Source: a virus. From it: DNA of 64,000 nucleotides. Position numbers and translations under genes: made by a program. Positions 3,735 through 25,254 of this stretch are shown here, piece by piece; positions within the stretch are counted from its first letter, which is position 1, and every line of letters begins with the position of its first letter. The notes under the pieces are model-generated. The model made no database searches and had not been told where the DNA came from. It saw only the letters and a program-made list of their open reading frames with translations. The stretch spans positions 1-64,000 of IMG/VR virus record IMGVR_UViG_3300042860_004240. One strand, given 5' to 3'.

Positions 3735-4808
3735 ATGGCATTAGACTATGCTAAATTGGGTTCTACATTCGCCGGCTTGGAAGCATTTGCTGACAATCCA
3801 GAGGCAATGGAGCTCACACGTAATACTATCAACCTTCGGGTTGGTAAACAAACACCATTCAAAGGCACAATCGGCAACGAAAAGCTGAACGCCTTTGTAA
3901 CATTGAAGTCGGCAAAGTTGACTCGTCTCAGCTTGCTACGTCAATCCCGTAAGCAACCATCAACTTCAGGTAGTCCTGACTATTATATCGTAACTGGTGC
4001 ATTTTCGCCAGTCGATCTAGAAGTCATGATTGAATCTGATGGAGAACTCGTACCATTATATGATGTATGGCGCGAAATGACAAATGCTTTGGGTAAGACA
4101 AAATATGATTCAAACGCCTTCTTGGCTCACTTGACTCGTATTGGCCTCAACTATACCAATGGTGGATTCCCTATCTACTTCCAGCAAATGGGAGCAGATC
4201 CGGATAAAATTGAGTACACACTGAACATGTTCCGTGACCTCGGTGGTTATGATGATGTCGCTGCAATGCAGAAGGCAACACGTGACTCATCTAAGCCACA
4301 ACGCATGGAACGTACACTCAAGCATGACACTGGTATTCCAGTAACATTCTTTGAGCTCGGTCAAGTTGATCGTACCAAAGTCACTAGTGGACAAGGTTTC
4401 GTAGACCTTTGTGATTCAATGAGCGGTCAATTCAACCGTGTAACATCACAACGTCACGATGCTAACGTACTTGCTCGTGAATTGGAAACTAATACAAACC
4501 TTTCAGATAAGAGCATTAAGGAAATCAACGCTAAGATTAAATCTTTGCGCGATCAATCCGTACAATACTCAGCTGTATGGTCAGGTTCACAACAAATCAC
4601 TGTAACAAATCCTATCACTAAGGATGTAGAATACAGTGATCGTTTTGCACCAACAAATGCACCTTGTGGTCGCTTTGACCTACTCGTCGATGGAGAAACA
4701 ATCAACATTGACCTGTGGAAAAACAGCGTTCGCAACGATGGTAGTGCACCATCAACATCTGTTCCTGCTCTTAAAACAATTAGTGCAGATTCAAACCCAT
4801 TAGGTTAA
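3735..4808 (+). CDS. Hypothetical protein, 357 aa
   Basis: A soluble protein of unknown function with a good AGGAG ribosome site. The N-terminal half has alternating beta-like segments. Around residues 245-280 there is a polar helical stretch (RELETNTNLSDKSIKEINAK) that could form a coiled coil. The C-terminus is rich in Ser, Thr, Pro and Ala. It stands alone, flanked by structured spacers, and is moderately codon-optimised, suggesting high expression. A virion or DNA-associated protein is possible, but no motif supports either. Confidence 0.75.
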   Translation: MALDYAKLGSTFAGLEAFADNPEAMELTRNTINLRVGKQTPFKGTIGNEKLNAFVTLKSAKLTRLSLLRQSRKQPSTSGSPDYYIVTGAFSPVDLEVMIESDGELVPLYDVWREMTNALGKTKYDSNAFLAHLTRIGLNYTNGGFPIYFQQMGADPDKIEYTLNMFRDLGGYDDVAAMQKATRDSSKPQRMERTLKHDTGIPVTFFELGQVDRTKVTSGQGFVDLCDSMSGQFNRVTSQRHDANVLARELETNTNLSDKSIKEINAKIKSLRDQSVQYSAVWSGSQQITVTNPITKDVEYSDRFAPTNAPCGRFDLLVDGETINIDLWKNSVRNDGSAPSTSVPALKTISADSNPLG

Positions 4809-9521: not shown

Positions 9522-10394
9522 ATGATTACAAAATCATACTTAAAATTAATAGGAATAATAATAACGGCTACTTCAATAATACTTCCAACCTCACCAGCTT
9601 CGGCTCGTGAATCGGAGGTTCCTAGACGTAGCTTACCATCTGTTCAATTAACTGAAAGTCCTACTAAATGGACTAAAGTAGAATTTAAGATGGGTCCCTC
9701 TACAAAATATTGGGACAAAGTTGCCAAATGTGAAACTAATTCAGATTGGCAAGATGGTGGTAACTGGGGAGGTGGACTAGGCATAGCCTTATCTACATGG
9801 AAAGGTTATGGCGGTTTGGAGTTTGCTCCTAAACCTGGTCAAGCTACAAAGATTGAACAAATCGTTGTAGCTAACCGAATAGCAGTATTCGGATATCAAA
9901 CTAAAGATACTTATATTACTTTAGAAGATAGATTAGCCAACAAACCATTCTACAGACCACCTGTAAGTTTCTATGGATGGGGTTGTATTAAGAATAATAA
10001 TTATCTTAAACCACCTAAATCCACAACTTACTCAGTTAAACTCCCAGTAGGAGAACAATATTATTGTCCTCAATACGAACCAATATTCCAAAAATATGCT
10101 TTGCCAGCCAAAGTATTTTCCTACATTGCTTGGCGTGAATCTAGGTGTAATCCTGGAGCCGTCAATGCAGTATGGGAAAATGGACAACTCGTTTGGACAC
10201 TTAATAAAAACGGATCATATGATTCAGGTTTACTACAAATTAACTCTTCATGGTTTAAAACATTAAAAGTACAATTAGGACATACACCTGAAGATCTAAT
10301 GAACCCATCAGTTAATGCTTTATTTGCCAGCTGGATCTTACACTTCTCAAGTGGAAGACTATCTAATTGGAGTCTTAAAGCACTCCCTGCATAA
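9522..10394 (+). CDS. Secreted muralytic enzyme: Rpf-like plus lysozyme-like transglycosylase domains
   Basis: Starts at 9522 after AAGGAG; an in-frame earlier start at 9429 lacks one. A signal peptide (about residues 1-29, ending ASA) predicts export. An Rpf-type transglycosylase-like domain follows (WDKVAKCETNSDW, GGGLGIALSTWKGYGG), with Glu in KCE as the expected catalytic acid. The C-terminal half is a second lysozyme-like domain with WRESRCNP and SGLLQINSSW, the SLT/goose-lysozyme signature. Both cut peptidoglycan glycan strands. Rpf domains are typical of actinobacteria. The protein could be an endolysin, a virion lysin or a wall-remodelling factor. It is the last gene before a strong terminator. 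Confidence 0.8.
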   Translation: MITKSYLKLIGIIITATSIILPTSPASARESEVPRRSLPSVQLTESPTKWTKVEFKMGPSTKYWDKVAKCETNSDWQDGGNWGGGLGIALSTWKGYGGLEFAPKPGQATKIEQIVVANRIAVFGYQTKDTYITLEDRLANKPFYRPPVSFYGWGCIKNNNYLKPPKSTTYSVKLPVGEQYYCPQYEPIFQKYALPAKVFSYIAWRESRCNPGAVNAVWENGQLVWTLNKNGSYDSGLLQINSSWFKTLKVQLGHTPEDLMNPSVNALFASWILHFSSGRLSNWSLKALPA

Positions 10395-10414
10395 AAATAA
10401 TTACTTCGCTATCT

Positions 10415-10449
10415 AGCGCGTTAGGACTTCGGTCTTAACGCGCTTTTTA
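10415..10449 (+). terminator. Strong Rho-independent terminator
   Basis: AGCGCGTTAGGAC-TTCG-GTCTTAACGCGCT, a 13-bp stem with one G-U pair and a UUCG tetraloop, followed by TTTT. Confidence 0.9.
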
Positions 10450-10459
10450 GTTTGTATAA

Positions 10460-10471
10460 ACTCATACAAAG
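10460..10471 (+). promoter_or_regulatory. TCATACAAAG-type intergenic motif
   Basis: ACTCATACAAAG sits just after a terminator and 18 bases before the pseudoknot RNA. This is where a promoter or transcript 5' end would be expected. Confidence 0.45.
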
Positions 10472-10488
10472 AACCTAGATCCCAGGGA

Positions 10489-10556
10489 CCCGTTTAATCG
10501 TATACGGGAAAAGAACCGACGCCAGCTCGGCTTCAGAAATACGATAGCTGGCTTTT
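10489..10556 (+). ncRNA. Candidate double-pseudoknot RNA
   Basis: Hairpin 1: CCCGT (10489-10493) with ACGGG (10504-10508). Its loop ATCGTAT (10497-10503) pairs with ATACGAT (10539-10545). Hairpin 2: CCGA (10516-10519) with TCGG (10527-10530). Its loop GCCAGC (10521-10526) pairs with GCTGGC (10547-10552). The two 3' segments are almost adjacent and are followed by TTTT. Pairing of loop 2 with the 3' segment alone would resemble a terminator, so a switch before the gene at 10589 is plausible. Confidence 0.6.
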
Positions 10557-10588
10557 ACAATATTCATATTATAACAAAGGAAAACACA

Positions 10589-11029
10589 ATGCTCTTATCA
10601 ATGATGCTAATTTTAGCAGTCACTTCATGTGCACTAGAACTTATGCTTGCTGCTAAAATTCCAGCATGGCGTAGACTATCAGCCAAATCCCCACTATTCA
10701 ACCTAGTTAACTCTCTTGCCATCTCATTCGTAATGGGTATGGCATTCGGAGCTTCAGGCTTAGTTGCAATGGGTGCAGGCGTTATCTCTACTATCTTGTC
10801 AGTACCAGGCTATCAGTTCCTTAAATGGAACTATGATACACCTAAAGCTATGGCTTTGCCTGAAAAAACTCGCGTCAAACACGAAGCAGTTAAAGTAAAG
10901 AAACTAAGCAGTGATCTTTACACTTTAGGTAAAGGAACTGCTAAAGTAATTACCATACCCGTATGGTTGCCAAGAGATTATATTTATAATCCAAGCAAGA
11001 AAATATACAAAAAATTCAAATCACTATAA
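10589..11029 (+). CDS. Membrane protein, unknown
   Basis: A 146-residue protein with an N-terminal hydrophobic helix, then two further hydrophobic stretches around residues 45-75 (LAISFVMGMAFGAS, MGAGVISTILSVPGY), and a basic C-terminal tail. The ribosome site AAAGGAA precedes the ATG. The next gene (11042) is also membrane-associated, suggesting a small envelope module. Confidence 0.65.
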   Translation: MLLSMMLILAVTSCALELMLAAKIPAWRRLSAKSPLFNLVNSLAISFVMGMAFGASGLVAMGAGVISTILSVPGYQFLKWNYDTPKAMALPEKTRVKHEAVKVKKLSSDLYTLGKGTAKVITIPVWLPRDYIYNPSKKIYKKFKSL

Positions 11030-11745: not shown

Positions 11746-14301
11746 ATGTTCGATGCATACGCACCCAAAACTCGTATGGTTGCCCATAAAGGGGGACCAC
11801 TACGAAGTGTAGAAAATTACCAATATGGTTTTTACGATATTGGTCCACTACGGGATCTTCTGAACTCAGACGATCCTGAAATTGACGATATTCAAATAGC
11901 GGCAATCCCTGTCCCTATGACTACTCACGAATATAACATAATCGAATCTATCGCACGACATCCACGTATTTCATACGCTGTTGTAGATAAAGATAAGATT
12001 ATGTTTGTTCGAGTTGGCCAGAAACGTGGATGGCTAACAGCCCTTAACGAAGCAGGCTTTAAAGTAAGTGGTGGTTCTAAAACACCTAAACGCGCTAAGC
12101 AGCTTCACCGTCCTACTTTGCTCAATGCTAAGTTTGACAACATTAATGTTTATATTGCCGACTCAACACAATTTAGTGATTATGATTTTGTTAATCCAAA
12201 TGAAGAAGTTCCTTCATGGATGCAAGATCCAGAAATCACATCTAGATTGTTAGATGGTGCCTTTGTTGTATCCTCTCGGTTACATTACAAAGCTATAAAC
12301 AATATACCTGTATATAATCCCAGCAATTCCACTGATCCATTAGACTATTATTATGATGGTCGCGTTCGTTCTGAAATGATCGAAGATCTAAAGAAACAAC
12401 GTGCCTATAATGGTCGTATCATTGGCTCTATCGGCACTATCAAAGGTAATTACTTTGTTGCCGATTTGCCAGAAGGAATTGATGTAATAACATCTAAAGA
12501 AAATATCAAGACAGAATTATCTAATTCTAAATCCTGGTATCTAATCGCAGAACCTCAATGGGCTAAACCCCATGCATCTACAGATATTCAAACTTTAATC
12601 AACTTTCCTAAGTTGTTTAGAAAGTCTGATTTGGAGATGTGGCTTCGAGAAGAATACAAGAAAATATTCAACGACGTTACCAATGGTAAAATCTTATCTG
12701 ATTACAAGCGAATTTACAAACGCTTGTGGCAAGAAGATGAAGAAATTGATGACCAAGAGCTTCATGCTCGTATGACCTATGTAGGTCATCGTTGGGTAAG
12801 TATGGGATTTAGTGTAACTAATTCACCTTGGCTATTTAAAACATTAGCAGTATCACATGCTAAGCCTTTACAGAAACGTATTCCTGTCCCTTGTGCCGTA
12901 TATGAGCAGATTATTTCAGAATCTATTGCTCATATGGCTGGATGGGATGGAACCGTACAACAAGGAACTATCCGTCGTTGCACTAGCCTTGGAGTTCATA
13001 TCGTTAACGACCTTGATTGGTTGGAAATGTATGAATCCCATGGTGGCCACGACGCTGACGATTTCTTCAAACTATATTACCGCGAAGTAGAAAGCGGTGA
13101 TTTAGATGGAGAAAAAGTTGTAATCACAAACCGTTGTCCTAATGGTTATGGTGAGTATTCTATATTTAAATATGTAGACAACGAACCTTATCCTACTTGG
13201 ACAATGGCTGATGGAACTGAAGTTTCATTTCCTAAAATCAATGGACGCAAATGGCCCACTCGTTTGAGTGAAGCTATTCGCGGAAACTACGTAGTATATA
13301 CTGGACTACCTAGCGACAATAAGGAAACTAAAATTGAATATTCAGATGAATATTCTGTTGAAGATTTCCTAATGAACGTTAGAAACACTATGACTACAGG
13401 TAACGTTGGTGGTTATGTTAATGCTGTTATGTTACACAGCTTAACAATAAACCAACATCGTCCTGTCCAAATGTGTAGTCTAGAATCTGCTATTGACGGT
13501 TGCACCCAAACGGATGTGCCGGAAGACCGTAGAGCAATCGATATTGAATCAGAACTAATTGTTAAAGAAGTTCTAGAATCAGGCAAACCGATTGACCAAT
13601 GGTATTGGGAAACTAGAGGCTTTGCTAATCGTTACCGTGATCAAGATGTTACACTCTATGAAGGTAAAACAACTCAAGTAGCTATGCTATGCAAGAAATA
13701 TTTTGCAGAGTATTGCAAGAAAGTTGCAGAATGGGCACAAGAAAATGCTCGTCCTGTTGACGCTGTTGCAGCTATTGGAGAACGTTTAGTACTACATGCA
13801 CAAGCAGACATTCGTCGTTTTCGTAAAGAAATCTATGAAGCAAACACTGCACCAACGTCTAGTACTGGCAATATCCAACGAGAAACTTGGGAAATTCTAT
13901 ATGATAAAATATCATTTCATATAGATTCGTTTGAACGTGATGAAGATAAGCATGATTACATTATTGCTTTACTTCATTCGTCAATCAAATTCCCTACAAC
14001 TGACGGAATTGTTACTGATCAAATTGTAATGAATAGAACTATTTATCCATATTTAGAGCGTGCTCTAATATTCTATGGACTTGGTTCTCTTCTGAAACTC
14101 CACAAATCTCCAACTGGTAAACTAACTGTTGAAGATGTTGCTGTCTCTATGTGGGAACACATAGACGAAGACAATAACATCCATACATTTAATGATCCTT
14201 TAGATTATCAAAAGTTTCATCAACAATTTTCAACAATTCGACACACCGCGCCTCGGTTAGATTCCATCAAATCTGACTTGCGTGTATTAAACATTAAATA
14301 A
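11746..14301 (+). CDS. Large protein of unknown function, possibly a divergent single-chain RNA polymerase
   Basis: An 851-residue soluble protein with an AAGGAGG ribosome site, the longest gene in the window and followed by a strong terminator. Two features recall the two-barrel polymerase families (QDE-1/YonO type): a G-x-x-K-G segment (SIGTIKGNYFVAD, near residue 230), and an acidic cluster after glycines (GGHDADDFF, near residue 432) followed by VVITNRCPNG. The order and spacing differ from known members and the full DxDxD signature is not clean. This is therefore a hypothesis, not an assignment; a structural or other enzymatic protein is equally open. Confidence 0.6.
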   Translation: MFDAYAPKTRMVAHKGGPLRSVENYQYGFYDIGPLRDLLNSDDPEIDDIQIAAIPVPMTTHEYNIIESIARHPRISYAVVDKDKIMFVRVGQKRGWLTALNEAGFKVSGGSKTPKRAKQLHRPTLLNAKFDNINVYIADSTQFSDYDFVNPNEEVPSWMQDPEITSRLLDGAFVVSSRLHYKAINNIPVYNPSNSTDPLDYYYDGRVRSEMIEDLKKQRAYNGRIIGSIGTIKGNYFVADLPEGIDVITSKENIKTELSNSKSWYLIAEPQWAKPHASTDIQTLINFPKLFRKSDLEMWLREEYKKIFNDVTNGKILSDYKRIYKRLWQEDEEIDDQELHARMTYVGHRWVSMGFSVTNSPWLFKTLAVSHAKPLQKRIPVPCAVYEQIISESIAHMAGWDGTVQQGTIRRCTSLGVHIVNDLDWLEMYESHGGHDADDFFKLYYREVESGDLDGEKVVITNRCPNGYGEYSIFKYVDNEPYPTWTMADGTEVSFPKINGRKWPTRLSEAIRGNYVVYTGLPSDNKETKIEYSDEYSVEDFLMNVRNTMTTGNVGGYVNAVMLHSLTINQHRPVQMCSLESAIDGCTQTDVPEDRRAIDIESELIVKEVLESGKPIDQWYWETRGFANRYRDQDVTLYEGKTTQVAMLCKKYFAEYCKKVAEWAQENARPVDAVAAIGERLVLHAQADIRRFRKEIYEANTAPTSSTGNIQRETWEILYDKISFHIDSFERDEDKHDYIIALLHSSIKFPTTDGIVTDQIVMNRTIYPYLERALIFYGLGSLLKLHKSPTGKLTVEDVAVSMWEHIDEDNNIHTFNDPLDYQKFHQQFSTIRHTAPRLDSIKSDLRVLNIK

Positions 14302-25123: not shown

Positions 25124-25234
25124 CCTTTCAACTCGAATACCTACCCTGTAACATACAGGGCGGTATACCCTCACTCTTATAAAGTGTTGAAAGGTTAGTC
25201 GGTCCACGTGGGTTCAATCCCCACCCGCCCTACT
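25124..25234 (+). tRNA. tRNA-like element or degenerate tRNA, possible TAT anticodon
   Basis: AGGGCGG (25157-25163) pairs with CCGCCCT (25225-25231) as an acceptor stem. GTGGG-TTCAATC-CCCAC (25208-25224) is a perfect T-arm. CACT-CTTATAA-AGTG offers an anticodon arm with TAT (Ile, ATA). A normal D-arm is missing, and 21 bases separate the anticodon and T arms. Around it, CCTTTCAAC (25124-25132) pairs with GTTGAAAGG (25186-25194), and CCCTGT with ACAGGG. It may be a decayed tRNA, an attachment site carrying a tRNA 3' end, or a tRNA-like RNA. Confidence 0.45.
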
Positions 25235-25254
25235 AACAAAATTAAGGAGCTTCT

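Follow-up and report, generated by a model that had tools for sequence, protein, structure and literature searches.

In tmRNA the pseudoknots are serial and not interleaved, and the upstream pseudoknot domain of plant viruses consists of serial simple pseudoknots that lie directly 5′ of a tRNA-like structure at the 3′ ends of the genomic RNA. Phages encode GOLLD and ROOL, structured and pseudoknotted noncoding RNAs of unknown function that are often located near tRNA genes and assemble into cages, many GOLLD RNAs being longer than 800 nt (PMC12286853). HDV-like ribozymes are nested double pseudoknots according to work cited in PMC5640933.

Here, a small double-pseudoknot element was analysed that lies at positions 10489-10552, on the plus strand, of a stretch of 64,000 nucleotides (the window) forming part of the IMG/VR virus record IMGVR_UViG_3300042860_004240, which is 81,065 bases long. 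The relatives of the window are long phage records, some exceeding 200 kb, and the viruses carrying the element are known from metagenomes only. A transglycosylase-like lysin and a WhiB-like neighbour (in L073, judged by eye) suggest that the host is actinobacterial. Like GOLLD and ROOL the element, hereafter type A, is phage-encoded, structured, pseudoknotted and read as noncoding, whereas those RNAs are very much larger, form cages and have neither sequence nor known fold in common with it; their Rfam covariance models gave no match in the window or its relatives. The likeness to tmRNA (RF00023) lies in pseudoknots near a tRNA-like domain, and in the phage G004 type A is followed by a tmRNA-like domain (24.8 bits, E 8e-7, below the curated cut-off of 47). 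In tmRNA, however, the pseudoknots are inside the acceptor helix, whereas here they are 5′ of the tRNA-like domain, the element has no visible tag frame and the tmRNA-like domain is absent in the window. No match to RF00023 above the cut-off was obtained in 13 records, the one in G004 being the best near an element, and the idea that the element is part of a tmRNA was rejected since type A has a tmRNA-like domain beside it only in G004/G005. The plant-virus domain is similar in that pseudoknots directly precede a tRNA-like fold, but the present element is interleaved, occurs in dsDNA phages and is often without a tRNA-like part. As for HDV-like ribozymes, going by the citation above, two pseudoknots within one small RNA are common to both; they are nested there, while here two hairpin loops pair to a tandem 3′ strand, without an Rfam match.

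Searches of Rfam 15 with the whole window returned tRNAs only at gathering scores, and nothing credible was found for 10380-10620 at E up to 10; the elements of the relatives were likewise without a family. There was no convincing match to the element in GenBank phages and nothing convincing in 84,980 species genomes, where presence in cellular genomes was rejected because 13 pattern matches scored as chance. No description of the element was found in the open-licence literature. The best reading of these comparisons is that the element would belong to a family not listed before, of the same kind as structured phage noncoding RNAs like GOLLD and ROOL.

The element is composed of two interleaved H-type pseudoknots in which the loops of hairpins P1 and P2 pair, in order, with tandem 3′ segments. 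P1 is formed by CCCGT (10489-10493) and ACGGG (10504-10508) and holds in its loop the 5′ strand of PK1, ATCGTAT (10497-10503), whereas P2 is formed by CCGA (10516-10519) and TCGG (10527-10530) and holds the 5′ strand of PK2, GCCAGC (10521-10526). The original prediction had proposed that both loops are complementary to nearly adjacent downstream segments, and this was borne out: loop 1 matches ATACGAT at 10539-10545 and loop 2 matches GCTGGC at 10547-10552, with the single A at 10546 between them (ATACGAT-A-GCTGGC). Three nucleotides (TTA) precede PK1 and one (C) precedes PK2, while 0 nt separate each PK strand from the 3′ strand of its own hairpin, as in classical H-type pseudoknots. Each stem is only 0-1 nt away from its pseudoknot helix, which allows P1/PK1 and P2/PK2 to stack, and we infer that they do so, giving two quasi-continuous helices.

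Type A was present in 14 related virus records by pattern scans and model R1, and BLASTN of whole records that carry a homologue of the membrane gene downstream found the element elsewhere in these records, with 84% and 79% identity limited to the element. Among the 8 distinct sequences 98.9% of the cells were paired, the unpaired ones coming from row L136, which has a one-base misalignment in P1. Two-sided changes were seen at 11 of 22 pairs and were distributed across all four helices, at 4 of 5 pairs in P1 (CCCGT/ACGGG, CCGGT/ACCGG, CCTGC/GCAGG and CAGGT/ACCTG), 3 of 7 in PK1 (ATCGTAT/ATACGAT, GTCATAT/ATATGAC and GTTATAT/ATATAAC), 3 of 4 in P2 (CCGA/TCGG and CCAG/CTGG) and one in PK2 (GCCAGC/GCTGGC, and ACCAGC/GCTGGT in G004/G005), both pseudoknot helices being 100% paired. 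None of 500 column shuffles equalled the observed covariation, and when partners were slid by 1-3 columns pairing was only 26-35%. The covariance check proposed along with the predicted fold has thereby been carried out, the pairings being kept and compensated in every helix. Comparative covariation is the decisive evidence, and on these grounds we firmly consider the double-pseudoknot fold to be real. For a conserved 5′ hairpin, P0, the aggregate of 342 lay above the null maximum of 299.5, but the window copy alone gave no support (p 0.3), and the hairpin was set aside.

Whether such a layout arises by chance depends on how strictly it is defined. With loose rules some such topology was present in 16 of 60 shuffled windows. 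A descriptor combining H-type geometry and pair weights, which uses no sequence, scored the site at 57.5, and none of 100 dinucleotide-preserving shuffled windows, scanned on both strands, reached this value (best 51.5). Without loop costs, stacking energies added over all four helices come to about −42 kcal/mol, well beyond the −19.8 of the best nested fold, which is a plausibility check only. Plain MFE folding was discarded as evidence (z −1.1, uninformative), since it cannot represent pseudoknots.

The fold recurs in three sequence types, A, B and D, of which A and D are found in the window, and 25 of 36 searched records, several of these being near-duplicates, carry at least one type. Type B, revealed by a topology scan of the relatives, has the same layout with unrelated helix sequences (CCCGC A TGGTTA GCGGG ... 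CTCA CT GGTATAT TGAG ... TAACCA A ATATACC); its five sequences are 96.3% paired, with two-sided changes at 11 pairs. Model R2 placed it in 10 records, including L203 and L205, which are phages without type A, and G004/G005 carry type B copies in tandem. When 0.93 Mb of relatives were scanned with the descriptor, only type A and B elements were on top (at least 55.5), with L142 tied lowest at 55.5, and this tie led to type D. Model R3, built for type D from five other phages with the window excluded, matched the window at 2513-2576 on the plus strand (68.9 bits, E=3.7e-18), which constitutes a second copy of the fold with P1 at 2514-2518/2526-2530, PK1 at 2520-2525/2562-2567, P2 at 2538-2543/2551-2556 and PK2 at 2546-2549/2571-2574. 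Its PK1, GTTAAC/GTTAAT, displays a compensatory change relative to the sequences of the model. Covariation in type D was seen in P1, PK1 and PK2; its PK2 is shorter (4-6 pairs) and it is the least supported type. All three types have P1, P2, PK1 and PK2 in order, tandem 3′ strands and compensatory changes. They also agree in the arrangement and spacing of their parts and in an A-rich linker, GAAAA, behind P1, and all measure about 60-66 nt, which suggests that they are of common descent. That one architecture is kept by several sequence types, two of them in one phage, shows selection on three-dimensional shape.

All 24 copies examined are intergenic, outside ORFs of at least 80 aa, and oriented in the same direction as the neighbouring genes. 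The original prediction had placed type A between a terminator plus repeated motif and a membrane gene, and each of these parts was located in the window. An intrinsic terminator of the upstream transglycosylase gene (10415-10449, the hairpin 10415-10444 plus Ts) divides that gene from the element, the CTCATACAAAG box follows at 10461-10471, and a gene for a 146-aa membrane protein (10589-11029) lies downstream, all on the plus strand. The box has 6 matches at no more than one mismatch in the window, where 1.8 would be expected, and stands upstream of genes at 2602, 7176, 10461 and 11699, one copy preceding a gene for an 851-aa protein; in relatives it occurs as TTCATACAAAG after AT-rich stretches, and it is possibly a phage promoter or leader motif.

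The genes behind type A vary between the 146-aa membrane gene, a WhiB-like gene, a 78-aa orphan and the 851-aa orphan, and a tmRNA-like domain may take their place. Type A immediately precedes the 851-aa gene in L101, L102 and L104-L106 and immediately follows it in L020 and L025; at a greater distance it lies about 1.2 kb on the 5′ side (window, L136) or about 4 kb on the 3′ side (L022). A tRNA-like domain is missing behind most type A copies. Type B is often 3′ of a gene resembling a single-strand-binding protein and is followed by a tRNA/tmRNA-like domain in L123, L134, L138 and L139 (both by eye), and in L203 its place is a slot among small genes, the boundaries of which bear a repeated motif.

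Several further features of these genomes were observed. In the tmRNA-like domains directly 3′ of elements (L134:9670-9768 in G004, and after type B in L123, L138 and L139) a tag frame is not visible. The small-gene series of L203 (4300-6169), in which each gene is closed by a TAGGAATCGTGACC-like boundary motif, contains two noncoding units. Located 3′ of type B, at about 1000-1250 in L134 and 3930-4150 in L138, is a noncoding block that has been conserved (GCGGGCTGCACGTGTCCGAAACA...GAATGCATCGTAGTAAGTGAA) and is perhaps a further structured RNA. In the window, the noncoding segment 4809-5020, after the gene 3735-4808, has the complementary segments CAAGTATTCC/GGGATGCTTG and CAGACGAG/CTCGTCTG and is possibly another double-pseudoknot-like RNA. 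A tRNA-like sequence of about 79 nt at 25157-25235, with an unusual D-arm region and similar in many relatives, matches RF00023 weakly and was called neither by ARAGORN nor at Rfam gathering scores. The 851-aa orphan (11746-14301) is conserved in 32 IMG/VR loci, with 43-69% identity in divergent relatives, and its HGGHDxDDxFK motif is invariant among aligned members. The GHDADD motif raised the idea of an RNA polymerase, which is not claimed, the protein being without a match in Pfam, PHROGs or PDB; its structure model was weak (pLDDT 62.7) and without a fold match.

The most plausible explanation, to which we assign a probability of about one half, is that the element is a stand-alone or processed phage noncoding RNA of two interleaved H-type pseudoknots, acting via protein binding or nuclease resistance. 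This reading is based on the lack of a common downstream gene, the position of all examined copies outside ORFs and the usual number of a single copy per type and genome, and also on the tandem type B elements, the gene slot in L203 and the 3′ tRNA/tmRNA-like domains. The RNA would be made within, or just after, a phage transcript and would persist as a noncoding RNA or an RNA domain that is compact and withstands nucleases, and which may act by binding a phage or host protein. In some genomes the tRNA/tmRNA-like domain directly 3′ could offer an RNase P cleavage site, freeing the 3′ end of the element.

In several phages the element lies 9-24 nt past a stop codon, as expected for a cis-acting 3′UTR element, which speaks against a stand-alone RNA. 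One may consider, as the foremost alternative and with a likelihood clearly lower, that the element governs stability or processing of the mRNA in cis, the knot blocking RNase J from the 5′ side and PNPase/RNase R from the 3′ side and setting different half-lives within one transcript. The intergenic, co-directional copies agree with this, the type D copy of the window runs across the stop codon (2529-2531) that ends ORF 2022-2531, and varied downstream genes are compatible with a generic stabiliser. On the other hand, a general stabiliser would be expected in more than one copy of a type per genome, the terminator in the window intervenes between type A and the upstream gene, and a mechanical block would not call for the degree of conservation seen in the pseudoknot sequences of type A. 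Stop-codon readthrough was rejected, as the next in-frame stop follows within a few codons in L101, L025 and L104 (by eye).

The original prediction also viewed the element as a compact regulatory or ligand-binding RNA. Covariation upholds the compact double pseudoknot, but the regulatory part, as a riboswitch or protein-binding attenuator in the 5′ leader of the next gene, appears improbable. In its favour, the element in the window follows a promoter-like box and is separated by 36 nt from the next start codon, a leader position that also counts against a stand-alone RNA, and GCCAGCT/AGCTGGC together with the predicted TTTT, present at 10553-10556, could make a terminator-like hairpin. Among the distinct type A sequences, however, only those of the window and L022 are followed by TTTT, so that it is not a conserved attenuator and a terminator reading was abandoned. 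Start codons are 28-330 nt distant, so that no conserved expression platform is evident, and type A has no constant position before functionally related genes; the link to the membrane gene is inconsistent, the element being absent upstream of 10 of 11 homologous genes. Conservation is mainly in the helices, and types A, B and D have few unpaired bases in common, whereas an aptamer core would typically retain them. Taken together, the changing downstream genes and the absence of both a conserved terminator and a conserved unpaired core make a riboswitch unlikely.

Somewhat less probable still is that the fold belongs, as a structural domain, to larger noncoding RNAs of the GOLLD or ROOL sort, of which the window copies would be reduced versions. 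Types B and D do occur within several hundred nt of conserved noncoding sequence that also holds tRNA-like and other structured parts, but type A is closely flanked by genes that leave little room, and the Rfam match to either RNA is lacking. That the element works as DNA, in the form of an origin, packaging or recombination signal, is very improbable in spite of its low copy number and its location in the early/replication gene region, since the G-U pairs and the fixed strand relative to the genes point to RNA, H-type geometry is typical of RNA and several genomes carry two sequence types.

Returning to a stand-alone or processed noncoding RNA, a bolder reading, less likely than not, is that the elements form a new superfamily of small phage RNAs, characterised by two interleaved H-type pseudoknots with a single tandem 3′ strand and by no more than two types per genome, and act in trans against the host or on the expression of phage genes, e.g. 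as decoys of host proteins that bind RNA or serve in defence, each type being tuned to a different target. The covariation-supported fold is new to the searched Rfam library and joins the few structured noncoding RNAs of large phages. At about 62 nt it is suited to crystallography, scaffold-assisted cryo-EM, mutate-and-map and pull-downs, and the question of what these phages use small knotted RNAs for is directly testable.
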